The translations under genes and the position numbers were made by a program. DNA of 64,000 bases from Rhodoferax sp. (GTDB lineage Bacteria > Pseudomonadota > Gammaproteobacteria > Burkholderiales > Burkholderiaceae_C), in the NCBI GenBank assembly GCA_019449595.1, contig JAGRPL010000004.1, positions 310,001 to 374,000 of the forward strand. The letters are read 5' to 3'. Position 1 is the stretch's first letter. Each line of letters starts with the position of its first letter. A model generated the notes under the pieces. It worked only from the letters and a program-made list of their open reading frames with translations, made no database searches and was not told where the DNA came from. Below, one piece after another: positions 6,511 to 58,256 of the stretch.

Positions 6511-7179
6511 ATGATTCAAACGCTCCAACTGGGTTACCACTACCCGAACGGCCCCCGGCTGGAATTTCCCGACGTAGATGTTGCCCAAGGCGCGGTGCTG
6601 CTGCTCAGCGGCCCTTCGGGCTGCGGCAAGTCCACCTGGCTGGCGCTGGTGGCCGGTTTGGTGGCGCCTACGTCGGGCTCACTGACGGTGGCGAGGCAGG
6701 CGCTGGCCGCGCTCAAGCCGGTGGCGGCAGACGCCTGGCGAGCCCGGGCCATTGGCTTTTTGCCCCAGAAACTGCACCTCAGCGCCGCACTCACCGTGGC
6801 GCAGAACCTGGCCATGGCGCAATGGGCAAGCGGCCAGCCGCAAGACCCGGCGCGCATCGACGCCGCCCTGATTGCCCTGGGCGTGCAGGACCTGGCCCAG
6901 CGCAAACCCGCACAGCTCTCGGGCGGGCAGGCGCAGCGCGTGGCGCTGGCGCGCGCCGTGTTGGCGCAACCCCGCGTGATCCTGGCCGACGAGCCCACGG
7001 CCAGCCTGGACGACGAAGCCGCCGCCGATGCCGTGGGGCTGTTGCTGGCCACCGCCCGCACCCAGGGCGCCACGCTGGTGATTGCCACCCACGACGCCCG
7101 CGTAGCGGCCCTGATACCCCCGGGAACGGATGGTCAAAACGGCTTCCAGTCCTTGAAATTACTGCGCAAACAGCTATGA
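6511..7179 (+). CDS. ABC transporter ATP-binding protein (LolD/MacB type)
   Basis: A 222-residue ATPase with Walker A GPSGCGKST (34-42), signature LSGGQAQRVALARA (about 136-149), Walker B VILADEP and a switch His in ATHD. It belongs to the LolD/MacB group that drives FtsX-type permeases. These are mechanotransmission or extraction systems rather than classical pumps. Its stop codon overlaps the ATG of the permease gene (ATGA), so the two are translationally coupled. The last residues (GFQSLKLLRKQL) and the stop are encoded within a copy of the dispersed repeat (7132-7190). With the genes downstream it recalls the Vibrio ZrgABCDE zinc-acquisition locus, but the substrate is unproven. Confidence 0.9.
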   Translation: MIQTLQLGYHYPNGPRLEFPDVDVAQGAVLLLSGPSGCGKSTWLALVAGLVAPTSGSLTVARQALAALKPVAADAWRARAIGFLPQKLHLSAALTVAQNLAMAQWASGQPQDPARIDAALIALGVQDLAQRKPAQLSGGQAQRVALARAVLAQPRVILADEPTASLDDEAAADAVGLLLATARTQGATLVIATHDARVAALIPPGTDGQNGFQSLKLLRKQL

Positions 7180-7190
7180 AAACAATAGCA
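7132..7190 (+). repeat. Dispersed Comamonadaceae-type repeat, copy 1 (spans a gene junction)
   Basis: A/T-rich element of two parts: a left arm (AAAACGGCTTCCAG) and a 28-bp core at 7163-7190 that reads TGCGCAAACAGCTAT, a short A/T-rich stretch and ATAGCA. The core contains inverted GCTAT/ATAGC arms. It encodes the end of the ATPase gene, its stop, and the start and first five codons of the permease gene. Confidence 0.8.
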
Positions 7191-8378
7191 CTTGCCTGGC
7201 GCTACCTGTGGTCCCGTCCTCTGGGGGCGGCCCTGAACCTGCTGCTCTTGAGCCTGGGGCTGGCTTCCATCACCTTTCTGCTGCTGGTGAACTACCAGTT
7301 CAGCCGGGCCTTTGACCGCGATCTGGCCGGCATTGACGTGGTGGTAGGGGCCAAGGGCAGCCCCATGCAGCTCATTCTCTCGGGCGTGTTCCACATCGAC
7401 GTGCCGCCGGGCAACGTGCCGCTCAAGGCCGTGCAGGCGCTGCGCGCGCACCCGCTGGTGGCCCAGGTCATTCCCATCAGCCTGGGCGACAACTTCCGCG
7501 GCTTTCGCATCGTGGGCACCTCGCACGACTACATCACGCACTACCAGGCCACGCTGGCCCAGGGTGCACTGTGGAACGCGCCCATGCAGGTGGTGCTGGG
7601 TTCCACCGTGGCCCAGAAAATGGGCCTGAAGCTGGGGGACACGTTTGCCGGTTCGCACGGCCTGGGTGCTGGGGGCCATGTCCATGGCGACAGCACCTAC
7701 ACCGTGCACGGCATTCTGGCGCCCTCCGGCAGCGTGCTGGACCGACTGATCCTCACCGACACGGCCTCCGTCTGGAAGGTGCACGAAGACTACACCGCCG
7801 TGGATGACGAAGACCGCAAGATCATGGAGGAGGAGCGCGAAGTGACCCTGGCGCTGGTGCGCTACAAGACGCCCATGGCGGCCATGACCTTTCCGCGCTA
7901 CATCAACACCAGCACCGAAATGCAGGCCGCCGCGCCCGCGCTGGAAATCACCCGCCTGCTCAGCATGCTGGGTGTGGGCACCGACGTGCTGCGCGCCTTT
8001 GCTGGCGTGCTCCTGCTCACGGCGGGCCTGAGCGTGTTCATCGCCCTGTGGAGCGCGGTGCGCGAACGCCGGGGCGATCTGGCACTGCTGCGCATGCTGG
8101 GCGCGCCCCCGCGGCGTGTGGCGGCGCTGCTGCTGTCCGAAGCGCTGTGGCTGGGCCTGCTGGCGGCCGTGCTGGGGCTGGCCGGCGGCCAGGCGCTGAC
8201 GGCCGCGCTGGGTTGGATGCTGCAACTGGACCACTCGCTGCTCATTGGCGGCATGGTCTGGCCGGTGGAACTGGCACTGGTGCCGGTCCTGGCGCTGGGC
8301 GTATCGCTAGCGGCGGCGATTCTGCCGGCGCTGGGGGCCTACCGCGTGAGCGTGCTGGAGCTGCTGCAAGGCCGATAA
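7176..8378 (+). CDS. FtsX-like ABC transporter permease
   Basis: A 400-residue inner-membrane protein with the MacB/LolC-type topology. One helix lies near the N-terminus (YLWSRPLGAALNLLLLSLGL), then a large periplasmic domain (about residues 50-280), then three helices at the C-terminus including LLLTAGLSVFIALWSAVRER and ALGVSLAAAILPALGAYRV. It pairs with the ATPase encoded immediately upstream. The start ATG 7176 overlaps the ATPase stop; a longer reading of the same frame to 6822 only shadows the ATPase gene. The periplasmic part contains a His-rich stretch (SHGLGAGGHVHGDS, about residue 160) that could bind metal, consistent with a Zrg-like role. That role is inference. Confidence 0.9.
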   Translation: MKTIALAWRYLWSRPLGAALNLLLLSLGLASITFLLLVNYQFSRAFDRDLAGIDVVVGAKGSPMQLILSGVFHIDVPPGNVPLKAVQALRAHPLVAQVIPISLGDNFRGFRIVGTSHDYITHYQATLAQGALWNAPMQVVLGSTVAQKMGLKLGDTFAGSHGLGAGGHVHGDSTYTVHGILAPSGSVLDRLILTDTASVWKVHEDYTAVDDEDRKIMEEEREVTLALVRYKTPMAAMTFPRYINTSTEMQAAAPALEITRLLSMLGVGTDVLRAFAGVLLLTAGLSVFIALWSAVRERRGDLALLRMLGAPPRRVAALLLSEALWLGLLAAVLGLAGGQALTAALGWMLQLDHSLLIGGMVWPVELALVPVLALGVSLAAAILPALGAYRVSVLELLQGR

Positions 8379-8399
8379 CTTCTACCCCACCAAGGAAAA

Positions 8400-8651
8400 A
8401 TGATGCATAAGACACTGCTAGCCCTCGCAATGATTGCGTTGACTGCTACGGTTTCCATAGCGGCCGAGAAACCGCTGGATGCCGACACCCAACAGGACAT
8501 CGCCCGCCACCGCGCCATGGCTGCCGCCCACGAGGCTGCCGCCCAGTGCCTGGAGTCCGGCAAGAAAGACGAGGTCTGCGAGAAGGAATTGCTGCAGGCC
8601 TGCAAGGGGCTGGCCATTGGTCGGTTTTGTGGAATGAAGCACGAGCACTAA
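8400..8651 (+). CDS. Small secreted Cys/His protein, unknown function
   Basis: An 83-residue protein (ATG 8400; ATG 8403 is equally possible) with a clear signal peptide, MMHKTLLALAMIALTATVSIA, probably cut after ALA/IAA-like residues. The mature part of about 60 residues holds four cysteines (in AAQC, EVCE, QACKG and RFCGM) and ends in MKHEH. Four Cys plus terminal His in an exported peptide suggests disulfides or metal binding. It lies 21 bp after the FtsX-like permease gene and 24 bp before the DUF3299 gene, all on one strand, so it is probably a component of the same system. I do not recognise a named family. Confidence 0.7.
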   Translation: MMHKTLLALAMIALTATVSIAAEKPLDADTQQDIARHRAMAAAHEAAAQCLESGKKDEVCEKELLQACKGLAIGRFCGMKHEH

Positions 8652-8675
8652 GATAGACGGGTCAAGGAGTCCACC

Positions 8676-9866: not shown

Positions 9867-9950
9867 GCCCGCAGTATAGGGAGGTCCGGGGGGCCTGGCA
9901 CCCCGCTGGCGCCGGCGGGGCGGGCGGTCCGTGGAGTTGCCCGCGCACCG

Positions 9951-10510: not shown

Positions 10511-10521
10511 GGAGAAACAGC

Positions 10522-12671: not shown

Positions 12672-13700
12672 ATGGAAAGCCTTGACCTTCGGGTGCTGGC
12701 CGATGCCCTGGCCTGGAAGCAGGCCGGGCACGCCGTCAGCCTGGTGACGGTGGTGGAGACCTGGGGCAGTGCGCCGCGTCCGCCCGGTGCACTGCTGGCC
12801 GTGCGCGGCGACGGCATGGTGAGCGGCTCGGTGTCGGGCGGCTGCGTGGAGGACGACCTGATCGCCCGCACGAAAGCGACGATGCAGCAGGCCGCCACAG
12901 ACCCGCGCAGCGAGCCGGCGACCGGCAAGCCGGCCATGCTGGCCTACGGTGTTTCCAAGGAGGAGGCGGCCCGTTTCGGCCTGCCGTGCGGCGGCACCCT
13001 GCGCCTGGTGCAGGAGCCGTTGCGCGATACCACCTGGGTGCAAGCTGTGCTGGAGCGCACTGCGGCGCACCAACTGGTGGCGCGCACCCTGACGCTGGCC
13101 AGCGGCGCCGTCACCCTGCACGATGCGGTGCGGGGGCAGGCCATGCATTTTGATGGCTCCACTTTGACGACCCTGTTTGGCCCGCGCTGGCGGCTGCTGT
13201 TGATTGGGGCCGGACAGCTGTCGCAGGCCGTGGCGGCCATGGCCACGGCGCTGGACTTCGAGGTGCTGGTGTGCGACCCGCGCGAGGAGTACGCTTTTAC
13301 CCTGGCGGGCCACGGTGCGCCAGGCGTGCAGCGCGTGGAAGGCATGCCCGACGACGTGGTGCGGGAGCTGCAGGCCGATGCCCACACCGCCATCGTGGCC
13401 CTCACCCACGACCCTAAGCTCGACGACATGGCGCTGCTGGAGGCGCTGACCTCGGACGCGTTCTACGTGGGGGCCCTGGGCTCGCAGCGCAACCAGGACG
13501 CGCGCAAGAAACGGCTGGCCCAGCATTTCGATTTGTCGGCTGCGCAACTGGACCGCTTGCACGGGCCGGTGGGGCTGCGCCTGGGCGCCCGCACGCCGGC
13601 CGAGATTGCAGTCTCCATCGTGGCGCAGATCGTCCAGGTCAAGAACCGGGTGGCGGCGGTGCCGGAGGTCCCTAGCCGGTCCGCTTGCGCCTTGGCCTGA
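12672..13700 (+). CDS. XdhC/CoxI-family molybdenum-cofactor chaperone
   Basis: A 342-residue maturation factor that binds, sulfurates-in-place or delivers Mo cofactor to molybdenum hydroxylases. The N-terminal XdhC_CoxI domain contains VETWGSAPRPPGALLAV and VSGSVSGGCVEDDLI, with the conserved Cys. The C-terminal Rossmann domain starts with LLIGAGQLSQAVAAMA and contains ALTHDPKLDD and the family end block GLRLGARTPAEIAVSI. ATG 12672 lies 23 bp after the large subunit. Its position in the operon argues for dedicated service to the enzyme encoded just upstream. Confidence 0.94.
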   Translation: MESLDLRVLADALAWKQAGHAVSLVTVVETWGSAPRPPGALLAVRGDGMVSGSVSGGCVEDDLIARTKATMQQAATDPRSEPATGKPAMLAYGVSKEEAARFGLPCGGTLRLVQEPLRDTTWVQAVLERTAAHQLVARTLTLASGAVTLHDAVRGQAMHFDGSTLTTLFGPRWRLLLIGAGQLSQAVAAMATALDFEVLVCDPREEYAFTLAGHGAPGVQRVEGMPDDVVRELQADAHTAIVALTHDPKLDDMALLEALTSDAFYVGALGSQRNQDARKKRLAQHFDLSAAQLDRLHGPVGLRLGARTPAEIAVSIVAQIVQVKNRVAAVPEVPSRSACALA

Positions 13701-13722
13701 GCCGGAGCCAGGGGAATCAGTC

Positions 13723-14271
13723 ATGACGGACGCGCACGACCTGCCGGTTGTCCTAGTGCTGGCCTCCGGGCGAGGCGAACGGTTTCAGGCATCCGGCGGC
13801 CAGACCCACAAGCTGCAGGCCGATCTGGCCGGGCGCACGGTGTTGCAGCGCACGCTGGACGCGGTGCAAGCCAGTGGCCTGCGCTGGCACCTGGAAGAGG
13901 CCGGCCACCCCGGCATGGGCGACTCCATTGCCGCCGCCGTGCGGGCCACGTGGGACGCTCCGGGGTGGATGGTGCTACCGGCCGACCTGCCCCTGATTGC
14001 GCCGCAGACGCTGCTGCAGATCGCCTGTGCGCCACTGGCCACCGAGGTGCTTCTGCCGCTGTACGGCGGCCAGCGCGGTCACCCGGTGCGCTTTACCCGC
14101 ACCTGTGGCGAGGCACTGGCTAATTTGCAGGGAAATCAGGGCGCAGCCCCCGTGGTATCTGCGCACACAGCTACAAAATTCATAGTAACGGACCCTGGCT
14201 GCGTGGAAGATATTGATACGGTGGACGACCTGGTCCGGGTCCGTTCGCTCTGGAACGCCCGGCTGGCCTGA
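13723..14271 (+). CDS. MocA-like molybdopterin cytidylyltransferase
   Basis: A 182-residue nucleotidyltransferase (NTP_transf_3/MobA-like fold). The motifs LASGRGERFQ, THKL, PADLPLI and GQRGHPVRF match MocA, which adds CMP to molybdopterin to make the MCD cofactor used by aldehyde-oxidase-type enzymes. It completes the set: two enzyme subunits, XdhC and MocA. It is slightly shorter than usual MocA proteins (about 190-200). Codons for AHTATKFIV (14161-14187) fall within a copy of the dispersed repeat and use ACA, ATA and GTA, which are rare in neighbouring genes. Confidence 0.88.
   Translation: MTDAHDLPVVLVLASGRGERFQASGGQTHKLQADLAGRTVLQRTLDAVQASGLRWHLEEAGHPGMGDSIAAAVRATWDAPGWMVLPADLPLIAPQTLLQIACAPLATEVLLPLYGGQRGHPVRFTRTCGEALANLQGNQGAAPVVSAHTATKFIVTDPGCVEDIDTVDDLVRVRSLWNARLA
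14132..14187 (+). repeat. Dispersed repeat, copy 2 (inside the mocA-like gene)
   Basis: Left arm GAAATCAGG and a 28-bp core at 14160-14187 (TGCGCACACAGCTAC, an A/T-rich stretch, ATAGTA). It lies wholly inside the coding sequence and keeps the frame. Confidence 0.7.
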
Positions 14272-20767: not shown

Positions 20768-21424
20768 TCAGGCCGGCTGCATGGCGCCGGACAGCAGCCG
20801 CTGGACGCCGGGTGCACTCGCCTTGACGGCGTGGACCAGCGCCCGTGCCACGTCGCCGGCCTGGATGGAGCGGTAGTTGGCAGGAATCACCGGTTTGAAC
20901 CAGCGCGTCACCACAAGGGCGATGCGTTCGCCGTTGCGCACCGGCTGGTCCAGCGCCTCGCGGTGCCCCGCCAGCATGGAGGGGCGTGCGATCACCAGGC
21001 TGTCAAAACCGAGGGAAGCCAGCGCGGCTTCCATTTCGCCTTTGACGCGGTTGTAGAAAACAGGGGAGCGGGCGTCGGCGCCCATGGCGCTGATCACTCC
21101 TAATTTGGTAGCGCCCTGCGCATGTGCTGCGCGGGCCAGTGCTACCACGGTATCGAAATCCACGGCGCGAAAAGCCGCCTGGCTGCCGGCCACCTTGATG
21201 GTGGTGCCAAGGGCAATGAAGCAGTCATCCACGCGGGGCAAGGCCGGTAGGGCCTTGAAATCCACCACGTGCTGGACCAGTTTGGGGTGCTGCAGTGGCA
21301 ACGTGCGTCGGCCCACGCAGTGGACCGACGTGTAGGTTTTATCGGCTAAAAGGGCCGCGAGGATTTCCCGACCCACGAGTCCCGTTGCCCCCGCCACCAT
21401 AGCCACCCGAGCGTGATCCGCCAT
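20768..21424 (-). CDS. NAD(P)-binding Rossmann protein (TIP30/atypical SDR-like)
   Basis: A 218-residue atypical short-chain dehydrogenase-like protein. The nucleotide-binding motif GATGLVG lies near residue 12, followed by [21 protein letters not shown], the active-site-type YNRVKGEME and [10 protein letters not shown]. It belongs with the HTATIP2/TIP30-like NAD(P)H-binding group; its function is unknown. The start codon ATG 21424 lies 86 bp inside the rhlE coding region in another frame, and a later start would destroy the first beta strand and glycine motif. A weak match to the dispersed repeat core lies at 21095-21122, where TTA and GGA codons stand out. Confidence 0.85.
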
Positions 21425-23087
21425 TGCCGCCTCCATTGCCTGAACCACCACGATTGCCACCGCCGTAGCCGCGGCGCGCGCCGCGTTCGGCCATCATATC
21501 GACACTGGTGCGCATCGGGTCGGGCTGGCCACCTGCCGCCGCGCGGGGGGCACGGGGCTCGCCCATGCCGCCGGCGAAACGGCCTTCGTGGCTGCGCGGC
21601 TGTGCGTCACCCTGGGGTGCGCGATCGCGGTTGGGGCCGCGTCCGGCGCCTTGCGGGCCACGGGCGCCTTGGGGCCGGGGAGCTTGCTCGCCCCCGCGAC
21701 CGCCGCCGCCCTGACCACCGTTGCCACGGGCGCCCTGACCGCCACGGCCACCGCCGCCGTTGCCGCGACCGGCACCCTGGCCGCCGCGCTCGCCTTGACC
21801 GGCCTTGTTTTCACGCACGCGCTGCAGCATCTCGGTGCGGGCGGCCTTGGCGGCTGCCTGCATGACGTCGCGGCTGGGCGGTTTGCCTGCGCCGCCCCAG
21901 ATGGTCTGGCGGCCCATGGCGATGGGTTCGGCGCGCTCACCCGCTTCGGGGCCAAAACCGTCCACGACGACGACCGGAATTTCTTGCTTGGTGAAGCGTT
22001 CGATGTCCTGCATGAAACCTTCTTCGTCCATGCACACCAGATTCACTGCCGCGCCGTCGGCACCGGCACGACCGGTGCGGCCGATGCGGTGCACATAGTC
22101 TTCGCTGACGTTGGGGATTTCGTAGTTGACGACGTGTGGCAGGTCGTCGATGTCGATGCCGCGCGCGGCAATGTCGGTGGCCACCAGGGCACGCACTTCG
22201 CCGCTCTTGAAGCCGGCCAGGGCCTGCGTGCGGGCGGCCTGGCTCTTGTTGCCGTGCAGAGCCATGGCGCTGATGCCGTTCTTGGTCAGGAATTCGGCCA
22301 CGTTGTTGGCGCCAAACTTGGTGCGAGTGAACACCAGCACCTGGCTCCAGTTGTGTTCCTGGATGATGTGGGCCAGCAGGGCCTTTTTCTTGCCGCGGCC
22401 CACGGGGTGGATCACCTGCGTGATGCGCTGCACCGTGGTGTTGCGCGGCGTGACCTGCACGCTTTGCGGGTTCTTCAGCAGGCTGTTGGCCAGGTCGCGG
22501 ATTTCATCGCTGAAGGTGGCCGAGAACAGCAGGCTCTGCTTGTCCTTGGGCACGGCGGCCAGCACCTTCTTCACGTCATGGATGAAACCCATGTCCAGCA
22601 TGCGGTCGGCTTCGTCGAGCACCAGCATCTGCACCTGGCCCAGGTCCAGCATGCCTTGCTGCATTAGGTCCAGCAGGCGTCCGGGTGTGGCCACCAGGAT
22701 GTCCACGCCCTTCTTGACCTTGGCGATTTGCGGGTTCATGCCCACGCCGCCAAACACCACGGTGCTGGAGAGTTGCAGGTACTTGCCGTAGGTCCGCACG
22801 GATTCTTCCACCTGGGCGGCGAGTTCGCGGGTGGGGGTCAGCACCAGGGCGCGGATGCCGGTGCCGCCAAATTTGTTCTGGGCGCCGGGGTTCAGGGAGA
22901 GGCGGTGCAGCATGGGCAGGGTGAAGGCTGCCGTCTTGCCGGTACCGGTCTGGGCGCCGCCCAGCAGGTCATGGCCTTCCAGGACCAGCGGAATGGCCTG
23001 GGCCTGAATTGCGGTGGGGGTCTCGTAACCCTGCTCGCGCACGGCTTTCACAATGGCCGGGGCCAGGTTCAATTCTTCGAAGTTCAT
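21339..23087 (-). CDS. rhlE: DEAD-box ATP-dependent RNA helicase RhlE
   Basis: A 582-residue RNA helicase used in ribosome assembly and RNA turnover. Motifs in order: [11 protein letters not shown] (I), PTRELAAQ (Ia), [11 protein letters not shown] (II), SATF (III), [18 protein letters not shown] (V) and [10 protein letters not shown] (VI). From about residue 430 on there is a long glycine/arginine-rich tail with many RGG-like repeats ([16 protein letters not shown] and similar), probably an RNA-binding, phase-separating extension. The DNA for the last 28 codons is shared with the start of the downstream Rossmann gene. ATG 23087 begins the standard N-terminus [15 protein letters not shown]. 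Confidence 0.95.
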
Positions 23088-27344: not shown

Positions 27345-29708
27345 ATGCCCGCCGTCCCGCCTCCCGCTTCTGGTCCGAATCCGGCCTTGGTCCGGTCCGT
27401 CCTGGACGGGGCGGCCGCCGGCGGGTCGGCGTTGATGGGCAAGCTGGTTGCCGCGGCACGGACCACGCTGCGCTCCCGCGAGGTCGCCGCCCGCGACCTG
27501 CGCGAACGCGATGCATTGGCGGCATCCGCCCAGTTGCTGCTGAGCCGGGAAGACGAGCTGCGCACCCTCTACGTACAGGCCTTGCGCACGGCGTTTGCCG
27601 ACACCGACCGGGGCCGGCAGGCCGAACCGGCCGCGGCCGGTTCGGTGCAATTCGATCAGCTGGAGCTGATGGACGAGTGGCAGGTGCAGGAGAGCGTGAC
27701 CGTGGCGCGTGCCCAGCAGGTCGCGTCGCTGGCCACCGATAGCAATCTGGCCGAACTCAACACCCTGGTTGCCAGTGCCCAGGGGCTCAAGACCGTGCGC
27801 CCCGAACGCAATCCCCTGCGCCCCGAGGTGTATGTCACCGCCCTGAAAGAGGTGCTGGGCCAGATGCCGGTCCCCGAGGCCACCCGGCTCAACTGGCTCG
27901 ATTGCATGGGCGCGGCCCTGGGGCAGGAGCTGCGCAAGCTGTACGACGAGGTGTCTGCCCGACTGCGGTTGGAAGGCGTGGTTGCCGCCGGGTATGCGGT
28001 GCTGCAAACCCCGAGCAGTGGTGCGGGCAGTGGTGACGGTGGCGCGCAGGCGCCGTCGTTCACGGTCACGGACGTGGGGGCTGGTGCGCCAGCCACCGCG
28101 GCGGAGCCGACCCTGCAGCCGCTGGCCGGTGGTGCGGCGCCTCCTGCGCGCGCGCCGGCGGGCAACGGGGCCGTGCTGACGCTGGACCGGCTGCGCCGCC
28201 TGCTGGCTGGCGAACTGGACCAGCAGGCCGGCGGCGCTCGCGCCGTCGAGTCGTTTGCCCAGCGGTTCTCACGCGAGTTCGAGAGCGGCCCGGCCCGCCG
28301 GGAAGCGCCGGAGACCGATTTCGATGCCACCATGCCGGCGGCACTGGAAGCCCTCCAGGAAATGAAACAGGTGGACCAGGTGGTCCAGCGCCTGGAACAG
28401 CGCCGCAACGCGCCTGCCGCTGCCCGGGCCGCCCAGCAGGGTGCGCGCCCCCAGGCCAGTGGCGTGGCGCAGGCGCTGAGTCTGGAGGTGGTGGCCCTGA
28501 TGGTGGACAACATCGCCCGGGATGCGCGGTTGCTGGCCCCCATGCAGCGGCTGGTACGCGAGCTGGAGCCCGCCCTGCTGCGCCTGGCGCTGGCGGACCC
28601 CCGCTTCTTTACCGACAAGCAGCACCCGGCGCGGGTGTTGCTGCAGGAGATGACCCACCGCAGCTTGGCCTATGCCTCGGAGCAGGCGCCCGGGTGCACC
28701 GAATTCATGCGCGCGTTGCAGCAGGCCGTGGCGCCGCTGGCGGGCGCCGAGATCGATAACGCCGAACCGTTTGAACAGGTCCTGGGCTCGCTGCGCAGCA
28801 CCTGGGGCCGCCTGGCGCAGCGCGAGACACAGGCCCGCGACCGGGCGGTGGAAGTGCTGCAGCACGCCGAGCAGCGCAACGTGCTGGCCGAAAAGATTGG
28901 ACGCGAGATCGAGTCCCACGCCGACGCCTCGCGGGTGCCGCCGGTGGTGATCGACTTCCTGTGCGGCCCCTGGGCCCAGGTGGTGGCGCAGGCGCGCATG
29001 GCAGGTGCCGGTGGCGCCGCCGTGGCCAACAAATACCAGGCGCTTATTTCGGCCCTGCTGTGGAGCACCCACCCGGAGCTGACGCGCCAGAACACGGCCA
29101 AGCTGACCCGTCTGGTACCGCTGCTGCTGGCCACCCTGCGCGAGGGGTTGGAGACCATCAGCTATCCCGTAACCAAGACCAGCGCGTTTCTGGAGGCCCT
29201 GATGGGCTTGCACCAGATGGCGTTCGAATCGGCGCGCAAGCCTGCCGGTGCGCCAGCGGCTGCGCCCGTGGTGGCGCCGGCGCCGCTGCCCGCACGCGCG
29301 CATGGGGTGCAGGACGGCGACCCGTGGGTGGCGCCGGAGGAGGCGCGCACTTCCAATTTCATGGAGTTGCCGGACATGCCGCAGGCCTTGGCGGACGACG
29401 TTTCTGCCGCAGCCCCCTCGCTGGCTGCTGCCGAGGCCGATGCGCCGGAGCTGGCGCTGGGAACCTGGGTGGAGCTGCGCATCAACGGCCAGTGGATGCG
29501 CACGCAGCTCACCTGGACCAGCCCGCACGGCACGCTGTTCCTGTTCACCAGTGCCGTGGGGACGACCCAGTCCATGACGCGCCGCTCCCGCGACAAGCTG
29601 ATGGCGGTGGGCAGCCTGCGCATCATCTCGGGGCAGCCTGTGGTCGATGGTGCGCTGAACGCCGTGGCCCAGACGGCCATGCGCAACAGCATGGACATCA
29701 CGCTGTAA
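27345..29708 (+). CDS. DUF1631 family protein, paralog B
   Basis: A 787-residue DUF1631 protein sharing blocks with paralog A: LTLDRLRRLLAGELD, TDKQHPARVLLQEMTHRSLAY, FLCGPWAQVVAQAR and the C-terminal LGTWVELRINGQWMRTQLTW with TSAVGTTQSMTRRSRDKL. It is longer because of Ala/Pro-rich linkers (about 225-270 and 640-670). Overall similarity is moderate, so the duplication is probably old. It follows ettA by 24 bp and is likely cotranscribed. Immediately after its stop begins a copy of the dispersed repeat. Function unknown. Confidence 0.85.
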   Translation: MPAVPPPASGPNPALVRSVLDGAAAGGSALMGKLVAAARTTLRSREVAARDLRERDALAASAQLLLSREDELRTLYVQALRTAFADTDRGRQAEPAAAGSVQFDQLELMDEWQVQESVTVARAQQVASLATDSNLAELNTLVASAQGLKTVRPERNPLRPEVYVTALKEVLGQMPVPEATRLNWLDCMGAALGQELRKLYDEVSARLRLEGVVAAGYAVLQTPSSGAGSGDGGAQAPSFTVTDVGAGAPATAAEPTLQPLAGGAAPPARAPAGNGAVLTLDRLRRLLAGELDQQAGGARAVESFAQRFSREFESGPARREAPETDFDATMPAALEALQEMKQVDQVVQRLEQRRNAPAAARAAQQGARPQASGVAQALSLEVVALMVDNIARDARLLAPMQRLVRELEPALLRLALADPRFFTDKQHPARVLLQEMTHRSLAYASEQAPGCTEFMRALQQAVAPLAGAEIDNAEPFEQVLGSLRSTWGRLAQRETQARDRAVEVLQHAEQRNVLAEKIGREIESHADASRVPPVVIDFLCGPWAQVVAQARMAGAGGAAVANKYQALISALLWSTHPELTRQNTAKLTRLVPLLLATLREGLETISYPVTKTSAFLEALMGLHQMAFESARKPAGAPAAAPVVAPAPLPARAHGVQDGDPWVAPEEARTSNFMELPDMPQALADDVSAAAPSLAAAEADAPELALGTWVELRINGQWMRTQLTWTSPHGTLFLFTSAVGTTQSMTRRSRDKLMAVGSLRIISGQPVVDGALNAVAQTAMRNSMDITL

Positions 29709-29771
29709 ATCAGGCTGTTTTCAGGCTGCAACCCGCGCCGATATTGCGCAGACAGCTATGATTTTGCTAGC
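29706..29771 (+). repeat. Dispersed repeat, copy 3 (gives the end of the EamA gene)
   Basis: Left arm AAATCAGGC and core 29745-29771 (TGCGCAGACAGCTAT, then GATTTTGCTAGC). It fills the gap between the convergent DUF1631 and EamA-type genes. Read on the minus strand, it supplies the last four codons (LAKS) and the stop of the transporter gene. Confidence 0.8.
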
Positions 29772-30667
29772 GGGCGGGCGCCGCGGTTGACCAGCGTGAT
29801 GCCTGCGCCCACCAGGGCCAGCGCCGCCAGCAGGGTGGGGGTCACCGCTTCGCCCAGCCACAAAGCGGCAAAGACCAGGGCAAAGACCGGGGTCAGAAAG
29901 GCAAAGACACTGACCTTGGTGGCCGGATAGCGGCCCAGGATCCACATCCACACCAGGTAGCTGGCAAACGCGCCCACGCCGATCTGCAGCACCAGCGAGG
30001 TGGCGGCAAAGGCGCTGAAGCTGGCGTGCCAGGGCTCACCCAGGCCCCAGGAAATCAGCGGCAGCACGGCCGCACTCAGGCCCACCTGGTAGAAGAGCAG
30101 TTTCTCCGCCGAGATGCGCGACAGGCTGCTGCTGCGAATCACCACTGTGGTCAGCCCCCAGAACATGCCGGCGGCCAGGCCCAGCAGGTCGCCCAGCCAC
30201 TGCAGCGGCTGCCCGGCCACCGTCAGGCCTTCGCGCAGCGTGAGCGCCACGGCACCGAAGGCCAGTGCCAGCCCCAGCCACTGCGTGCGCGACAGGTGTT
30301 CCGTTTTCGCCACCCAGGGCACCAGCACGGCCACCCACAGCGGCGAGGTGTACAGGAACAGCGTCAGTCGCGAGGCCGAACCGTACTGCAGCCCGATGAA
30401 CAGGCACACGAACTCCAGCGCAAACAGCGTTCCGGCCAGCAGGCCGGCGCCCAGCGTGCCGTCGCGTTCGAACAGCCGCACACCGCGCCAGGCACACCAC
30501 AGCAGCAACAGCACGGTTGCGCCAGCCAGCCGCAGGGCCGACTGGAACACCGGTGCCACCTCGGCCAGCGTGGCCTTGACCAGCACCTGCTGGAAGCCCC
30601 AGAACACAAAGCAGGCCAGCAGCAGGCCGACGGCCAGCGGGTCCAGGTGGGCCTTGCGCGGGCTCAA
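29756..30667 (-). CDS. EamA/DMT-family transporter
   Basis: A 303-residue inner-membrane carrier with ten predicted helices in two EamA repeats (for example VGLLLACFVFWGFQQVLVKA and LLGLAAGMFWGLTTVVIR), the RhaT/YdcZ-type drug/metabolite group. No ATG exists near the natural N-terminus. TTG 30667 overlaps the stop of the flavin reductase gene (TTGA), giving coupled translation, and is chosen; an upstream in-frame ATG at 30799 lies within that gene and would add 44 unrelated residues. The C-terminus is encoded by the dispersed repeat. The substrate is unknown. Confidence 0.85.
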   Translation of the reverse strand: MSPRKAHLDPLAVGLLLACFVFWGFQQVLVKATLAEVAPVFQSALRLAGATVLLLLWCAWRGVRLFERDGTLGAGLLAGTLFALEFVCLFIGLQYGSASRLTLFLYTSPLWVAVLVPWVAKTEHLSRTQWLGLALAFGAVALTLREGLTVAGQPLQWLGDLLGLAAGMFWGLTTVVIRSSSLSRISAEKLLFYQVGLSAAVLPLISWGLGEPWHASFSAFAATSLVLQIGVGAFASYLVWMWILGRYPATKVSVFAFLTPVFALVFAALWLGEAVTPTLLAALALVGAGITLVNRGARPLAKS

Positions 30668-31269: not shown

Positions 31270-32112
31270 ATGCGCCTGCCCTATCTTCTTGTCGGCCTGC
31301 TTGCTATGGTTAGCATAGCGTCTCACGCAATGCCGGAGCGGTATTGCCGCGATTTTTCTTCGAAAATACCAAACCTGGGACCGGCGCTGTGCGAAGCCGC
31401 CCAGCTGCAGGACACCCAGGCCCGCTCGGTCATGGGGCGCACCATCTGGAGCCGCGATATCCGCCCCGGCGACCCGCGCCTGCGCGTGCTGGTGCTGGGC
31501 GGCATCCATGGCGATGAAATGTCCTCCGGCTCCCTGGTGTTCCATTGGATTGCGCTGGCCCAGACGCCGCCGGCCGACACGCCGCTGCCCATTCATTGGC
31601 GTTTCATTCCGGTGCTCAATCCGGACGGGCTGTTTTCCCGGCCCTCGCGGCGCGTCAACGCCCATGGCGTGGACCTGAACCGCAACTTCCCCACGCCCAA
31701 CTGGGCGCGCGATGCCAAGGTGTATTGGGAAACCCGCACCCACCGCGACCCCCGCCGCTGGCCGGGCAGCAAGCCGCTGTCAGAGCCCGAGTCGCGTTTC
31801 CTGCTGGAGCAGATGGAGCGCTTCAAGCCCAATCTGATCGTCAGTGTCCACGCGCCGTACGGCGTGCTCGACTTTGACGGCCCGGCCTCGCCGCCCAGCC
31901 GCCTGGGGCGCCTGTACCTGGACCAGGTGGGCATCTACCCCGGCTCGCTGGGCAACTACGGGGGCATCCACAAGGGGGTGCCGGTGGTGACGATCGAGCT
32001 CACCAGTGCCTCGCGCACGCCGCAGGAGGCCGAGATCCGCCAGATGTGGCTGGACCTGCTGCGTTGGACGACGGACCGGCTGGGTCCGGGTCTGTCCACC
32101 GCCTCCCCGTAA
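31270..32112 (+). CDS. Secreted M14-family metallocarboxypeptidase (murein peptide amidase-like)
   Basis: A 280-residue zinc peptidase with a signal peptide (LPYLLVGLLAMVSIASHA). The zinc motif HGDE has His80 and Glu83; the third ligand is probably the His of IVSVHAPYG. Substrate-anchoring residues are in GVDLNRNFPTPNW and the catalytic Glu in VVTIELTSAS. The layout matches small bacterial M14 enzymes such as MpaA, which cleave gamma-D-Glu-Dap bonds in murein peptides; here the enzyme should be periplasmic. The signal peptide codons (CTT GCT ATG GTT AGC ATA) coincide with a reversed copy of the dispersed repeat. Confidence 0.88.
   Translation: MRLPYLLVGLLAMVSIASHAMPERYCRDFSSKIPNLGPALCEAAQLQDTQARSVMGRTIWSRDIRPGDPRLRVLVLGGIHGDEMSSGSLVFHWIALAQTPPADTPLPIHWRFIPVLNPDGLFSRPSRRVNAHGVDLNRNFPTPNWARDAKVYWETRTHRDPRRWPGSKPLSEPESRFLLEQMERFKPNLIVSVHAPYGVLDFDGPASPPSRLGRLYLDQVGIYPGSLGNYGGIHKGVPVVTIELTSASRTPQEAEIRQMWLDLLRWTTDRLGPGLSTASP
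31302..31356 (-). repeat. Dispersed repeat, copy 4 (reversed, inside a signal-peptide region)
   Basis: On the minus strand the 28-bp core (31329 down to 31302) reads TGCGTGAGACGCTAT, an A/T-rich stretch, then ATAGCA; the arm (AAAAATCGCGGC) lies at about 31345-31356. It is the most diverged of the seven good copies. It lies in frame within the first 30 codons of the M14 peptidase. Confidence 0.6.
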
Positions 32113-40193: not shown

Positions 40194-40260
40194 CATTTTT
40201 CAAGCCGAATAGGTCTCCAGACTGCGTATAACCTGCGCAGGCAGCTATTAAATGCATAGC
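40194..40260 (+). repeat. Dispersed repeat, copy 5 (intergenic)
   Basis: Left arm TTTTTCAAGCCG and core 40234-40260 (TGCGCAGGCAGCTAT, TAAATGC, ATAGC). It lies just downstream of the serine hydrolase and upstream of the hsdM fragment. Confidence 0.8.
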
Positions 40261-40320
40261 GTTTTGGGGGGCGCGCTGCATAGGCTATCCTCGTAGCCTG
40301 CCTTACCCCCCCACTCTGAC

Positions 40321-41827: not shown

Positions 41828-42020
41828 TCAAAGAGTTGACGACTGGAACTCAGGCCGCCCCAGCAGTGAAGCACTGGGTGCCGCCAGTTGCACCATGGAG
41901 GCCAGGTGCTTCATGCGGACAGGGCCTTCAACCCGGTGCAAATGATCAAAGAAGCGCAAGGCCGCATGCTGACGAAACTGGTGGGCAAAGTCCATGAGAC
42001 CACGCCGACGCCCATTCAGT
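41828..42020. other. Decayed non-coding stretch
   Basis: No gene I can support. A plus-strand stretch at about 41917-42020 reads HADRAFNPVQMIKEAQGRML and on to TPIQ-stop with good codon character. It could be the 3' end of a lost gene, but I cannot name the family. Confidence 0.3.
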
Positions 42021-42076
42021 AAAATCGATTGCCAGCACCCCTGGAATATGCATATACAGCTATCGAAAAGAGAGTG
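42021..42076 (+). repeat. Dispersed repeat, degenerate copy 6
   Basis: Arm AAAATCGATTGCCAGC and a core at 42049-42076 that keeps ATACAGCTATCGAAAA but has lost the ATAGCA end. It precedes the permuted papain-like gene. Confidence 0.45.
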
Positions 42077-42110
42077 AAATGCAGAACGCAAGAAGACGCT
42101 GGATGGCACC

Positions 42111-53340: not shown

Positions 53341-53385
53341 GGGATAACTCCTTAAAAATTTGCCTGCATCTTACACAAGCTGACA

Positions 53386-53441
53386 TGCTATTAAAACAAT
53401 AGCTATCTGCGCAGTATTCACGGGTCCTGGAAGGCGAAAAG
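53386..53441 (-). repeat. Dispersed repeat, copy 7 (intergenic, reversed)
   Basis: On the minus strand: arm CTTTTCGCCTTCCAGG, then the core (53413 down to 53386) TGCGCAGATAGCTAT, an A/T-rich stretch, ATAGCA. It lies in the 104-bp gap between recJ and the thiolase gene, inside the thiolase upstream region. Confidence 0.8.
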
Positions 53442-53444
53442 ATG

Positions 53445-55154
53445 CTAAATCTCCGCCCCTTCGACCAGAAAGCGCACCCTGCGCACGCCGTTCCATTCGT
53501 CTGCGTCCAGGCGGAAGGCCAGCGTGACCCTGGCCGGCAGCGGCTCGGTGTGGCCGAACCAGATCCCGTCCACCGGCTGGCCCTGGTGCTTGAGCTTGAG
53601 CGCCAGGTGTTTTTCACCCACCAGCCGCTGCGAGATCACCTCAACCTCTTCGCTGAAAGTGGGCGCCGCAAAGCCCTGGCCCCAGACCTCCTTGTGCAGG
53701 GTGTCCACCAGTTCCACGCGGCGGTACTCGGGCGCCAGCGGGCCGTCGGTGTCCAGGCGGCGGGTCAGCGTGGCAGAGTCCAGCCACTCCTGGGCGACCG
53801 CGATGAGCCCCTGCTCAAAGGCGTCCAGCCCGTCCTCGGTGATGGTGCAGCCGGCTGCCATGGCGTGGCCGCCAAAGCGCAGCAGCACGCCGGGGTTGCG
53901 CTTGGCCACCAGGTCCAGCGCATCGCGCAGGTGAAAGCCGGGGATCGAGCGGCCCGAGCCCTTGAGCTCGTGTTCCTTGCCCGGTGCAGCACTGGCGGCG
54001 AAGACGAAGCTGGGGCGGTGCAGCTTGTCCTTGATGCGGCTGGCCACGATGCCGACCACGCCTTCGTGGAAGTCGGGGTCGAACACGCAGATGGCCGGCG
54101 GCGGTTCGTCTCCTTCCTCGAACAGCCCTTCGGCAATCATCATGGCCTGCTCGCGCATGTCGCCCTCGATCTCGCGGCGCTCGCGGTTGATGCCATCCAG
54201 CGTTTTGGCCAGCTCGTCGGCGCGGGCCGGGTCGTCGGTGAGCAGGCATTCAATGCCCAGCGTCATGTCTGACAGGCGCCCAGCGGCGTTGATGCGCGGC
54301 CCCAGGGCAAAGCCGAAGTCGAAGGTGGTGGCAATGCCGGCGTTGCGTCCGGCCGCCGCAAACAGGCTGGCCAGGCCCGCAGGCATGGCGCCGCCGCGCA
54401 CCCGCTTGAGTCCCTGGGCGACGAGGCGGCGGTTGTTGGCGTCCAGCCGCACGACGTCGGCCACGGTGCCCAGCGCCACCAGCGGCAGCAGGGTGTCGAG
54501 CTTGGGCTGGTTCTGCGCCGTGAACACGCCGCGGTTGCGCAGTTCGCTGCGCAGCGCCAGCAGCACGTAGAACATCACCCCCACACCGGCTATCGACTTG
54601 CTTTCAAACGGGCAGCCGGGCTGGTTGGGGTTGACGATCACATCCGCGTTCGGCAGTTCGGGCGCGGGCAGATGGTGGTCGGTCACCAGCACCTGCAGGC
54701 CCAGTTCCCGTGCGGTGGCCACGCCCTCGACGCTGGCGATGCCGTTGTCCACGGTGATCAGCACGTCGGCGCCGGCGTCTTTCACGCGCCGGGCAATGGG
54801 CGGGGTCAGGCCATAGCCATCGACGATGCGATCCGGCACGATGTAGCTGACGTGGCGGGCGCCTAGTAGTTTGAGCCCGCGCAGGGCCACGGCGCAGGCG
54901 GTAGCGCCATCGCAGTCGTAGTCGGCTACGACGCACAGGTGCTTGCCTGCGTCCATGGCGTCGGCCAGCAGGGTGGCGGCCTCGGGCAGGCCCCGCATGG
55001 TGCTGGGGGGCAGCAGCTTGGCCAGGGCGTCGTCCAGTTCTTCGGTGCCGGTGACGCCGCGTGCGGCGTACAGGCGCGCCAGCAGCGGGTGGATGCCGGC
55101 CTGTTCCAGTGCCCAGACGGAGCGCGGCGGAATGTCGCGGGGAACGATGTTCAT
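53445..55154 (-). CDS. recJ: Single-stranded-DNA-specific exonuclease RecJ
   Basis: A 569-residue 5'-3' ssDNA exonuclease for recombination and mismatch repair. DHH-family motifs: VVADYDCDGATACA (motif I, three Asp), VDNGIAS (II), VTDHHLPAPELPNADVIVNP (III, DHH), then IAGVGVMFYVL. The DHHA1 domain carries CIVGIVASRIKD-like and GGHAMAAGCTI (GGH). The C-terminal OB region follows. Length is normal. ATG 55154 overlaps the stop of the RpfE-like gene (ATGA). The recJ/rpfE neighbourhood is also known from Xanthomonas. Confidence 0.95.
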   Translation of the reverse strand: MNIVPRDIPPRSVWALEQAGIHPLLARLYAARGVTGTEELDDALAKLLPPSTMRGLPEAATLLADAMDAGKHLCVVADYDCDGATACAVALRGLKLLGARHVSYIVPDRIVDGYGLTPPIARRVKDAGADVLITVDNGIASVEGVATARELGLQVLVTDHHLPAPELPNADVIVNPNQPGCPFESKSIAGVGVMFYVLLALRSELRNRGVFTAQNQPKLDTLLPLVALGTVADVVRLDANNRRLVAQGLKRVRGGAMPAGLASLFAAAGRNAGIATTFDFGFALGPRINAAGRLSDMTLGIECLLTDDPARADELAKTLDGINRERREIEGDMREQAMMIAEGLFEEGDEPPPAICVFDPDFHEGVVGIVASRIKDKLHRPSFVFAASAAPGKEHELKGSGRSIPGFHLRDALDLVAKRNPGVLLRFGGHAMAAGCTITEDGLDAFEQGLIAVAQEWLDSATLTRRLDTDGPLAPEYRRVELVDTLHKEVWGQGFAAPTFSEEVEVISQRLVGEKHLALKLKHQGQPVDGIWFGHTEPLPARVTLAFRLDADEWNGVRRVRFLVEGAEI

Positions 55155-56107
55155 AAGGTCTTCAACCAGGTGGTGGCCTGCGGTGCAGCCAGGCGCCGGC
55201 GCAGGCGCTCCCACAGCGCGGGGGCCTGCCATTGCAGGGTCTGCGCCTGCTGCTCGCCGCACAGGGTGAGCTGCACCTTCTGGCCGGCCTGCAGGTGCTC
55301 CAGCAGTTCGGCCAGGGTGGTGCGGTCCAGTTCCTGCCAGGCCTGGGCCCAGGCGGGGGCGTCGTCCTGCAGCGCGGCGCTGCGCAGGGTGTGCAGCACA
55401 GTGCTGGGGCCGGCCGCGGTGTCGGCCGGGGCCCACGTGCCGGTGCCGCTGGCCCAGAAGGAGTTCACCGTGGGCTGGCCGCGTGCGGCACGCGCGTCGT
55501 TGACAGCGTGGGTGTAGAGCAGCATCTGCATTTCGTTCTGCAGCCGCCGCAGGGCCTTGGCCTGCTCCTGGCGGGGTATCCAGGCATCGACCGGCTGCCC
55601 GGACACGCGGTCCAGCGAGGCGGTGGGCAGGGCCCGGAAGACCTCGCCCTGCGCCAGCCAGCGGGTGTGCGTGTGCGCCAGTGCGTGGGGGAACAGGGTG
55701 ATGCCGTCCTCGGCAAAGTAGGGCTGCATGGCCGCGTGCAGGGCCAGGGCTTCGTCCGGCGTGAGCGCCAGCTGCTGCGGGTCGGCCATTTCCACATGGT
55801 GGGTGTGCACCTGCCACTGGCAGGGTGTGATCCAGGCCCAGCCTTCGCCGCCGTGCGCGGCGGTGAGGCCCAGTTGGGCGGCGTCCTGCGCGGCCCAGGG
55901 CAGCAGGCCGTCGGGGGCATCCCCCAGGCCCAGATGGCGGGCCTGCACGCGTTCGTGCAGGGGTGTGAGCTGGTCGGCCTGGCCGGGGTGTGCGGTGCCG
56001 GGGCTGAGCTGGCGCAGCAGGCGCGTCAGGTGGGGCAGCTGCAGCCCGTCCAGGGCCTGGCGGCACTGGGGGCCGGCGGGTGCCGCGTAGGAGATAACGG
56101 TGTGCAT
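55151..56107 (-). CDS. RpfE-type protein (phosphoglycerate-mutase-like regulatory family)
   Basis: A 318-residue cytoplasmic protein. It resembles RpfE of Xanthomonas, a family often labelled cofactor-independent phosphoglycerate mutase-like. Typical parts are GWAWITPCQWQVHTHHVEM, ALHAAMQPYFAEDGITLF and the late VNSFWASGTGT. I see no complete alkaline-phosphatase-superfamily metal site, so catalysis is doubtful. The gene is coupled to recJ by a 4-bp overlap, as in Xanthomonas where rpfE lies beside recJ. ATG 56107 is preferred; MRDNQG six codons upstream is possible. The actual role is unknown. Confidence 0.75.
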   Translation of the reverse strand: MHTVISYAAPAGPQCRQALDGLQLPHLTRLLRQLSPGTAHPGQADQLTPLHERVQARHLGLGDAPDGLLPWAAQDAAQLGLTAAHGGEGWAWITPCQWQVHTHHVEMADPQQLALTPDEALALHAAMQPYFAEDGITLFPHALAHTHTRWLAQGEVFRALPTASLDRVSGQPVDAWIPRQEQAKALRRLQNEMQMLLYTHAVNDARAARGQPTVNSFWASGTGTWAPADTAAGPSTVLHTLRSAALQDDAPAWAQAWQELDRTTLAELLEHLQAGQKVQLTLCGEQQAQTLQWQAPALWERLRRRLAAPQATTWLKTL

Positions 56108-56143
56108 GCCCTGATTGTCCCGCATGGATGCCACAATCCGGGG

Positions 56144-57403
56144 ATGACGCAAATTCCCTATGAGCTCATTGTGGGCTGGCGCTACACGCGGGCCGGCCGC
56201 ACTACCCGGCGCAACGGCTTTATTTCCTTCATCTCCGGGGTCTCCATGCTGGGCATTGCGCTGGGGGTGGCGGCCCTCATCATCGTGCTCAGCGTGATGA
56301 ACGGCTTCCAGAAAGAGGTGCGCGACCGCATGCTGGGCGTGGTCTCGCACATCGAGGTCTATGCCGCCAGCGGCCAGGCGCTGCCCGATGTCGCCCTGAC
56401 GCTGAGCCAGGTCCGCTCCCATCCGCAGGTGGTGGGTGCGGCCCCGTTCATCGCGGCCCAGGCCTTGCTGGCGCGCGGCGAGGACATGAAGGGCGTGATG
56501 GTGCGCGGCATTGACCCCGCGCTGGAACACGAGGTGACCGATCTGGCCGCCGGCGCCCAGTCCGCGGTGCTGGCCCAGCTGGCGCCGGGCGGCTTTGGCG
56601 TGGTGCTGGGTGCCGAGCTGGCGCGCAGCCTGGGTGTGCGCACCGGCGACAAGGTGACCCTGGTGGCGCCCAGCGGGCAGGTCACCCCCGCCGGCGTCGT
56701 GCCCCGGCTCAAGCAGATGACAGTGGTGGGCACGTTTGACTCCGGCCACTACGAGTACGACTCGGCCATGGCCTTTGTGCATGTGGACGACGCGGCCCGG
56801 ATTTTCCGCCTCGAAGGCCCCACGGGCGTGCGCCTGAAGCTGCGCGACCTGCACCAGGCGCGCCAGGTGGCCGACGAACTCAGCCGCACATTGACGGGCG
56901 AGCTCTACATCCGCGACTGGACGCGCCAGAACCGCACCTGGTTTGCGGCCGTGCAGGTCGAAAAACGCATGATGTTCATCATCCTCACGCTTATCGTGGC
57001 GGTGGCGGCCTTCAACCTGGTGAGCACGCTGGTGATGACGGTGACCGACAAGCGCGCCGACATCGCCATCCTGCGCACGCTGGGGGCCAGCCCGGGCAGC
57101 ATCATGGGCATCTTTGTGGTGCAGGGCGCCATGGTCGGCGTCATCGGCACGCTGGCCGGTCTGGCGCTGGGCCTGGGCGTGGCCTTCAACATCGACGTCA
57201 TCGTGCCGGCGCTGGAACACGCGCTGGGCGCCAGTTTCCTGCCCAAGGACATCTACCTGATCAGCCGCATGCCCAGCGATCCGCAGCAAGGCGACATCGT
57301 GCCGATTGCGGTGATTGCCCTGGTGATGGCCTTTGTGGCCACCCTGTATCCGAGCTGGCGCGCCAGCCGTGTCAACCCGGCGGAGGCTTTGCGTTATGAG
57401 TAG
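56144..57403 (+). CDS. lolC: Lipoprotein-releasing system permease LolC/E
   Basis: A 419-residue inner-membrane permease that, with LolD, extracts outer-membrane lipoproteins and hands them to LolA. It has one N-terminal helix ([20 protein letters not shown]), a large periplasmic domain with the LolA-binding hook region ([18 protein letters not shown]), and three C-terminal helices. The IEVYAASG and [19 protein letters not shown] blocks are standard. Only one permease gene precedes lolD here, so the organism may use a homodimeric LolF-like arrangement or have lolE elsewhere. Its end overlaps lolD by 8 bp. Confidence 0.93.
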
Positions 57404-58256
57404 AAATGATGCCCCCACGTTCGGCACTGACGTGTCCTCTCTGCCCCCCGAGGGGGCCCTCGCGGCTAGGGGCGGCCCGTCGCCGCTCGATCCTGCATCG
57501 CGCGCCGCGGTCGGCGCCGCGCAGTACCGGCTGGTGGCCGGGCTGGGCGGAAGTTCGCCGGTGCCCGCAGGAACGGGCGAAGTCGTCTTGCGGGCCCAGG
57601 GCCTGACCAAGCGCTTTGCCGAGGGCCGGCTGGACGTGACTGTGCTGCAGGGCGTGGACCTGCAGGTGCGCCGGGGCGAGACCCTGGCCATCGTCGGCGC
57701 CTCCGGCTCCGGCAAGAGCACGCTCTTGCACCTGTTGGGCGGGCTGGATGCTCCCACCAGCGGCACGGTCGAACTGCACGGGCAGAACCTGGCCCGCCTG
57801 GGCGCCGCCCAGCAGGGGCGCCTGCGCAACCAGCACCTGGGCTTTGTGTACCAGTTTCACCACCTGCTGCCCGAGTTCAGTGCCCTGGACAATGTCGCCA
57901 TGCCATTGACCATTCGGCGTCTGGACCGCGCAGAGTGTGCGCAGACAGCTATGAAAATGTTAGCAAGCGTGGGTTTGCAGGACCGCGTGCACCATCGCCC
58001 GGCAGAGTTGTCGGGCGGCGAGCGCCAACGCGTGGCCATTGCCCGGGCGCTGGTGACCCGGCCCGACTGCGTGCTGGCCGACGAGCCCACCGGCAACCTG
58101 GACCGCAGCACTGCCGATGGCGTGTTCGACCTCATGCTGGAACTGGCGCGTGCCCACGGCACCGCCTTTGTGCTGGTGACGCACGACGCCGCGCTGGCCG
58201 CGCGCTGCAGCCGCCAGCTCACCCTGGTGTCAGGGCGCCTGGGGCCTGCGGCCTGA
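57396..58256 (+). CDS. lolD: Lipoprotein-releasing ATPase LolD with N-terminal extension
   Basis: A 286-residue ATPase, longer than usual LolD (about 230). Walker [10 protein letters not shown] (101-109), the LolD Q-loop [21 protein letters not shown], signature [14 protein letters not shown], Walker [13 protein letters not shown] and THD follow in order. The first 60 residues are extra; part of them ([15 protein letters not shown]) is encoded by a G+C-rich palindromic repeat (57436-57480). Residues about 181-190 ([10 protein letters not shown]) are encoded by a dispersed-repeat core. A shorter protein starting at a later GTG or TTG is conceivable, but ATG 57396 is coupled to lolC. Confidence 0.92.
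57436..57480. repeat. G+C-rich palindromic repeat inside lolD
   Basis: CTGCCCCCCGAGGGGGC followed by CCTCGCGGCTAGGGGCGGCC. The inverted GCCCCC/GGGGGC arms form a strong hairpin. Sequences of this kind recur in Comamonadaceae intergenic regions, from general recollection. Here it lies in frame in the N-terminal extension of LolD. Confidence 0.5.
57911..57965 (+). repeat. Dispersed repeat, copy 8 (inside lolD)
   Basis: Arm CATTCGGCGTCTGG and core 57938-57965 (TGCGCAGACAGCTAT, GAAAATG, TTAGCA). It is in frame and encodes a helical segment between the Q-loop and signature of LolD, using the rare codons ACA and TTA. The protein length matches the family here, so the core has replaced rather than lengthened the segment. 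Confidence 0.75.

Follow-up and report, generated by a model that had tools for sequence, protein, structure and literature searches.

A 64,000-nucleotide stretch of Rhodoferax sp. DNA (assembly GCA_019449595.1, contig JAGRPL010000004.1, positions 310,001 to 374,000; hereafter the window, with coordinates counted from its first letter) carries ten copies of a 68-bp element that stands singly, on both strands, at hundreds of sites in the genome. An original prediction made from the letters of the window had described part of it as a dispersed 28-bp repeat. The element is apparently unnamed and represents a larger phenomenon than that description covered. It looks more like the recognition site of one machine than like a jumping repeat. 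Tentatively, and with less than even confidence, we favour the reading that the family comprises recognition sites of one trans-acting system, kept by selection or drive and, by analogy, most like DNA-uptake sequences.

The 68-bp motif and its distribution

The original prediction listed eight 28-bp cores in the window, each preceded by a second arm at a variable distance. All eight were found at their positions, and a genome scan, which had been proposed as a check, gave clear enrichment over the control: across the whole source genome (G000 in our labelling) the core pattern with at most two mismatches has 282 matches, against 10 for the reversed pattern. The discovery pattern TGCGCAGACAGCTAT, scanned over the window and over shuffled sequence with at most three mismatches, recovers seven of the eight cores where shuffles predict 1.83; the eighth (31329, minus strand) is too degenerate for it, yet scores 32.8 bits with the profile described below. 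Pattern matches from the first 854 kb of the window's own contig (C13:1-854000) were aligned without gaps, and these 78 matches gave a profile of 68 columns. Information is confined to columns of about -40 to +27, with background beyond, so that the unit is 68 bp long and has sharp edges. Hence, the 28-bp core exists but is the right-hand part of a longer element, and the internal spacing, including that of the second arm, is fixed rather than variable.

A profile scan of the same 854 kb found 115 copies with at least 20 bits and two further ones at 12-20 bits, and no match of 8 bits or more in Markov or reversed sequence (the complement control is the same as the reversed one). The motif holds 54 bits in its own genome and 53-61 bits across three genomes, with zero matches in the reversed controls; the profiles of the two relatives among them, G246 and G248, were seeded from the G000 profile and trained on the same stretches on which they were scored. 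Three blocks make up the motif, block 1 being approximately AAATnGGCCTnnAGCCCCCGT, block 2 TGCGCAGACA or a dialect form of it, and block 3 GCTATnAAATnnATAGCA. Its mean G+C content is 48.5%, compared to about 65% for the contig. A/T tracts of the left arm are about 11 bp apart and in helical phase (column-shuffle fraction 0.0008, which is overstated because this null breaks the tracts). The palindromic end, GCTAT...ATAGC, has a 5-bp stem, at the foot of which there is no GTAG or CGTC tag; the logo columns before the stem read GACA.

Gene context was assigned with a rough home-made codon-usage gene caller, the placement of which is wrong for at least one copy, that at 21094 of the window, put partly outside its gene. 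By this measure, 31 of the 115 copies are intergenic, 53 lie inside genes (25 sense, 28 antisense), 23 over a gene end and 8 over a gene start. The intergenic share of 27% compares with 5% for random windows, i.e. it is about five-fold higher, while 86% of the random windows are internal to genes. One preferred placement is at stop codons, with 20 same-strand copies starting within -45 to +20 of one. Strand use is balanced (60 and 55 copies). Close inverted pairs and tandem copies do not occur among the element copies; the smallest gap is 724 bp in G000, and 719 and 417 bp in G246 and G248, respectively. Moreover, the copies are spaced more evenly than expected by chance. The coefficient of variation of the spacing is 0.80 in G000, a value as low as this being reached in 0.0036 of uniform simulations and in 0.0006 of those keeping the coding and non-coding shares, and it amounts to 0.64 in G246 (0 of 5000 simulations as low) and 0.72 in G248 (0.013).

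The distribution among genomes is patchy. Allowing one mismatch, 126 of 200 genomes of the bacterial family have no match, 34 have 1-19 and 40 (tallied by hand) have at least 20, with a maximum of 681; all such counts are lower bounds, since the pattern of one dialect was used. Thus G246 has 28 pattern matches genome wide but 72 profile matches in 480 kb, while G230 has a single pattern match genome wide and no profile match in 233 kb. Within the genus of the source genome, matches occur in 36 of the 51 genomes (maximum 396). The occurrence is uneven even within single genera, as two congeners have 165 and 0 matches and another two 59 and 0. Among named records, those of Polaromonas glacialis R3-9 (L094) and of Comamonas granuli (L098) contain loci with copies. 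These scans support the earlier view of a family scattered through Comamonadaceae genomes and overlapping coding sequence. One copy reading ATGAAAATnnTAGC, at an apparent gene start about 2-4 kb from lolD, is common to L094, L098, L099, L101, L102 and L119, which belong to several named genera. The names lolD and hisH are used here as we take them from sequence recognition; Pfam supports a lolD-type ABC ATPase. Forty stretches of viral contigs match the pattern exactly, while a plasmid search with one copy as query gave no match. Rfam has no family for the element, its sole match being IRES_Bip far under the gathering score. Our literature searches found no description of the 68-bp motif, and among the matches listed for the core strings as text in papers, all look unrelated by title.

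Retention, dialects and the formation of sites

Sites of the element are old. In five relatives that carry it, the copy is kept in 48 of 51 site-genome pairs anchored on both flanks, which cover 30 copies (G246 22/24, G248 14/15, G213 5/5, G220 4/4, G211 3/3), whereas none of 17 anchored sites carries a copy in the element-free relative G230. Within the genus, copies are therefore partly confined to homologous positions, an outcome that had been named as speaking against a family. Orthologous copies (32 pairs representing 13 copies, each in register on one flank or both, the latter in 21 pairs) agree at 0.78 in high-information and 0.585 in low-information columns, while unrelated copies agree less, at 0.70 and 0.30. 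At C13:211081, 339706 and 350195, of which only the last lies wholly between genes, the low-information columns are near chance between orthologues and the motif is kept. Furthermore, the motif differs genome wide between relatives: G246 retains AAATnGGCCTCTAGCCCCCGT and GCTAT...ATAGC but lacks the block 2 consensus, and G248 has GCGCAAGCAGC. Such a genome-wide change of dialect would look like a site tracking its reader.

There are no near-identical copies, the best pair sharing 51 of 68 positions where column shuffles give 45-52, and therefore no sign of recent copying. A recent transposition burst is ruled out on this ground, with a small similarity excess remaining.

The formation of sites can be followed within lolD. 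There, 82 relatives could be aligned, 78 of them with exactly 68 nt at the site. Seven of these equal-length rows carry the element (33.9-58.2 bits), one is partial (15.6 bits) and 70 are without it (below 0); the variable columns of the lolD copies are the host gene's own sequence. This is the same kind of test as the no-gap alignment by which, according to passages of their paper, Redfield et al. (2006; PMC1626085) argued that uptake signal sequences (USS) are not insertions. As a general rule, length neutrality had to be dropped, since length gains occur at other sites.

The comparisons also bear on the proposal that the repeat supplies start codons, stop codons and peptide segments. At 7176-7179 of the window, the stop of an ATPase gene and the start of a permease gene indeed lie inside the element, but G230, which lacks an element at this place, shares the overlapping in-frame stop as well as the start (MKTIALSWRY); the element did therefore not create them. 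A hisH-like start, the second place where a comparison is possible, is present in G248 without any element copy, so that the supply of start and stop codons is not supported at either. A native start codon resembling the element coincides with the element's right end in the permease gene as well as in the hisH-like one. The part on peptide segments holds for three of seven coding sites, which have 30-45 nt extra in frame relative to G230, but not for lolD, the length of which is unchanged. Judging from these alignments, we read the sites as short-tract replacements, sometimes with net gain, at places that were already element-like.

A putative reader and the rival explanations

In the favoured reading, several hundred 68-bp sites would be read by one trans-acting DNA-binding machine, selection or molecular drive would maintain them, and the machine would belong to DNA uptake, as in Pasteurellaceae and Neisseriaceae. 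The existence of a single reader, the maintenance of its sites and its role in uptake are what we infer from the observations above. New sites would have arisen in some cases without change of length and in others with 30-86 bp extra, as if the element replaced a short tract. Among known systems, the element works most like USS and the DNA uptake sequences (DUS), without a claim of membership. According to the passages of PMC1626085, PMC7811141 and PMC1939737, these likewise number in the hundreds, use both strands, lie within genes as well as between them and are non-randomly even in spacing, with subclade-specific types and lineage-wise loss; the even dispersal over both strands, whether inside genes or outside, was found for the element as well. 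The passages also describe their sites as free of alignment gaps. USS also have A/T-rich flanking segments 12 positions apart, as the passages of Redfield et al. (2006; PMC1626085) describe. However, USS and DUS have a core of 9-12 bp with flanks, whereas the element is 68 bp long with about 54 bits.

Several points weigh against this reading. The motif is longer than known uptake sequences and 5-7 times rarer than their approximately one per kb. ComEC, the only competence family that was searched, does not discriminate, as 39 of the 40 genomes having 20 matches or more contain it and so do 151 of the 160 others; no reader protein was found. The copies are also partly linked by similarity, the mean nearest-neighbour identity being 44.4 of 68 compared to 43.1 (standard deviation 0.17) in shuffled columns, and some columns less than four apart are linked, with mutual information up to 0.49. 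Finally, some sites came with extra sequence, unlike those of USS and DUS. Among 14 tightly anchored pairs with an element-free partner, seven partners are 30-86 bp shorter and the other seven lie within 0 to +11, and in-place point mutation does not explain these gains of 30-86 bp. At coding sites, G230 is shorter in three of seven cases (-45, -42 and -30, in frame); of 597 random coding windows, which were kept away from elements and are unmatched in base composition, 4 show such a difference. The background is high for partly coding random windows at gene edges (5 of 20 shorter), and therefore non-coding gains prove little. One intergenic site is exactly 68 bp shorter in G230, though its alignment is unclean.

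One of the two main rival explanations, though we consider it unlikely, regards the element as the cognate repeat of a RAYT, a REP-associated tyrosine transposase (REP, repetitive extragenic palindromic sequence), copied via single-stranded DNA and still the putative binding site of that protein. The transposase check proposed with the original prediction led to a single RAYT gene in the source genome, 238 amino acids long and located upstream of gltB (L043:6894-7610, G000:C13:86894-87610), with the element at its 3' end. The protein scores 88 bits with NF047646 and 50 bits with PF01797, and its sole PDB match is 4er8, TnpA_REP (E 4e-4). By its length and the motifs NHFH, WE and YIDLNP, it would best fit the TnpAY1 subclass 2.1 ('TIRYT' type). 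In positive genomes, the 3' end of the gene often carries element columns -40 to +18, without the last arm, and ends 4-5 nt before the motif RTGWCCC; this motif is similar to GGGGWSAS, the TIRYT consensus, when the latter is complemented. Overall, the element sits at the RAYT 3' end, mostly on this side alone, in 28 of 41 positive loci and in two of 44 others, and the latter two have 2 and 6 residual matches. This contrast leaves out rows L200, L207, L249, L250 and L251, scores L177 and L247 as element-bearing and L242 as element-free (its motif reads TGGCCC) despite a 12.6-bit copy, and includes two rows each for G213 and G210. In G246, the RAYT 3' end follows the dialect (48.4 bits by its own profile, 11.6 by that of G000), while in G248 the dialects are not discriminated (57.7 and 56.7 bits). 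A second RAYT-like gene of G213 (L247, G213:C65) is very divergent, does not have gltB as a neighbour and is flanked by full elements upstream and downstream. Moreover, the in-frame gains at coding sites suggest insertion, and the element shares with REP/RAYT systems a high copy number, a short palindromic end and a RAYT gene whose 3' end bears a copy of the repeat.

However, the association is weak because it comes down to essentially one inherited locus, and we regard it as a lead rather than a conclusion. gltB adjoins 82 of 90 RAYT loci, in types A and B alike, and the two types were therefore rejected as independent loci. At this locus RAYT diverges to about 50% identity inside one genus. 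Only two independent contrasts fall on well supported branches, and the identical same-strand arrangement of an element at the stop is seen in 20 of 737 genes. RAYT homologues occur in 190 of 200 genomes, including 152 of the 160 with fewer than 20 matches; PF01797 misses G141, G095 and G196, in all of which a protein search finds homologues. Besides lacking the GTAG/CGTC tag and young copies, the element has only a 5-bp stem and stands as singlets rather than in inverted pairs. REPs are mostly extragenic and often arranged in inverted pairs or clusters, whereas about half of the element copies are inside genes. Furthermore, the authors of PMC6006769, in the passages at hand, report that they found no REP-like sequence for subclass 2.1. 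One case is suggestive with regard to uptake: the 100% complete genome G042 has no ComEC match, two pattern matches and a relic element at its RAYT, and may be a recent loser.

We also give a low probability to the possibility that the sites bind an intracellular protein for chromosome organisation, replication or repair, the even spacing reflecting that role. The spacing, even in all three genomes, the occurrence as singlets in either orientation, retention and the phased A/T tracts would be in line with such a protein. However, the balanced strands give no hint of replication polarity, with origin and terminus not located, and many relatives, even congeners, have few or no matches, which would be unusual for a basic chromosome function. 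Nor did a candidate protein turn up, though no search was aimed at one.

An old mobile element, similar to a MITE (miniature inverted-repeat transposable element) or REP, that spread once, was inherited and is now partly exapted or decaying appears improbable. Point mutation would hardly produce a 50-bit motif hundreds of times over, and the sharp ends, the shorter element-free sites and the slight excess similarity between copies point in the same direction. But decayed copies are few, as the near-absence of copies at 12-20 bits indicates, and the better-kept motif columns together with the genome-wide dialect change are unlike neutral decay. The marks of a transposed element give a mixed picture: near-identical copies are absent, coding sites are 30-45 nt shorter in G230, and the one intergenic site that is 68 bp shorter there does not align cleanly. 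Other described repeats share single traits with the element. The Beta-proteobacterial repeat element (BRE) is also dispersed in several Comamonadaceae genomes, sometimes within coding sequence, but is described in the passages of Hot et al. (2011; PMC3110155) as about 90 bp long, with an average of 69% G+C in Bordetella, tandem at some loci and with at most 29 copies; it is this description, not a sequence comparison, that sets it apart from 68-bp singlets present in hundreds. Rickettsia palindromic elements (RPE) lie in frame within protein-coding genes, as quoted in PMC3733652, and those of R. conorii are quoted as ending in CGTC. The element has no such tag, and some of its coding sites show no length change.

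An RNA element such as a hairpin, terminator or riboregulator is very improbable and was rejected: GCTAT...ATAGC is able to pair and 23 copies lie over gene ends, but the check for covariation of the arms, also proposed with the original prediction, came out negative, as the only stem pair with good variation (columns 13-21) reads TA 37, TG 30, CA 26 and CG 13 and no column pair shows Watson-Crick pairing above the permuted null, sense and antisense copies in genes are equally common, and no Rfam family exists.

Copies in the window and their implications

Two of the ten window copies with at least 20 bits were not in the original prediction. The first copy (7124..7191, plus strand, 61.4 bits) spans the junction of two open reading frames (ORFs) annotated from Pfam, covering the end of one for an ABC ATPase (6511-7179) and the start of one for an FtsX-type permease (7176), and is also present in G213, G248, G220 and G211. 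The second, which is new (8396..8463, plus, 45.3 bits), lies in the signal-peptide-like start of an 83-amino-acid ORF (8400-8651), for which a Pfam search gave no match. At 14121..14188 (plus, 66.1 bits), the element is within a MobA-like NTP transferase ORF assigned with Pfam (13606-14271, same strand) and has an equal-length counterpart in G248. The other new copy (21094..21161, minus, 26.0 bits) is weak and falls within ORF 20768-21460 (minus), which has a weak match to an NAD-binding family; orthologous segments in five relatives have the same length and scores of 7.7-33.5. A copy at 29706..29773 (plus, 57.7 bits) takes in the final bases of a DUF1631 ORF (27345-29708, plus) and the end of an EamA transporter ORF (29756-30799, minus), and one at 31301..31368 (minus, 32.8 bits) lies within an M14 peptidase ORF (31270-32112, plus), where it runs antisense through the signal-peptide-like start. 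The copy at 40195..40262 (plus, 65.2 bits) is intergenic, and that at 42010..42077 (plus, 34.4 bits) is upstream of a C92 peptidase-like ORF (42111-42956). Between a thiolase ORF and a RecJ-like ORF (53445-56066, minus) lies the copy 53385..53452 (minus, 66.4 bits), which overlaps the end of the latter by 8 bases. The last one (57899..57966, plus, 51.0 bits) is within the lolD-type ABC ATPase ORF (57333-58256, same strand) and is length-neutral relative to the relatives. Signal-peptide-like coding starts thus host two of the ten copies, 8396-8463 in sense and 31301-31368 in antisense orientation, and both are retained in the compared relatives.

Pasteurellaceae and Neisseriaceae are the only groups for which the literature passages available describe specific uptake sequences. 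It is conceivable, though rather doubtful, that the element represents a third independent system of genomic self-recognition, in Comamonadaceae-type Burkholderiales, with a long, dialected 68-bp motif that is possibly read or seeded by a domesticated RAYT. The RAYT 3' end would be the first candidate substrate for a RAYT subclass that, according to the passages cited above, was reported without any. Generally, a 54-bit motif at hundreds of sites, with dialects per genome within a genus, points to a DNA-binding function that has not been recognised so far in these bacteria. If the sites indeed serve DNA uptake, a third uptake system, with a motif both unrelated and longer, would open the origin of such drive to testing.

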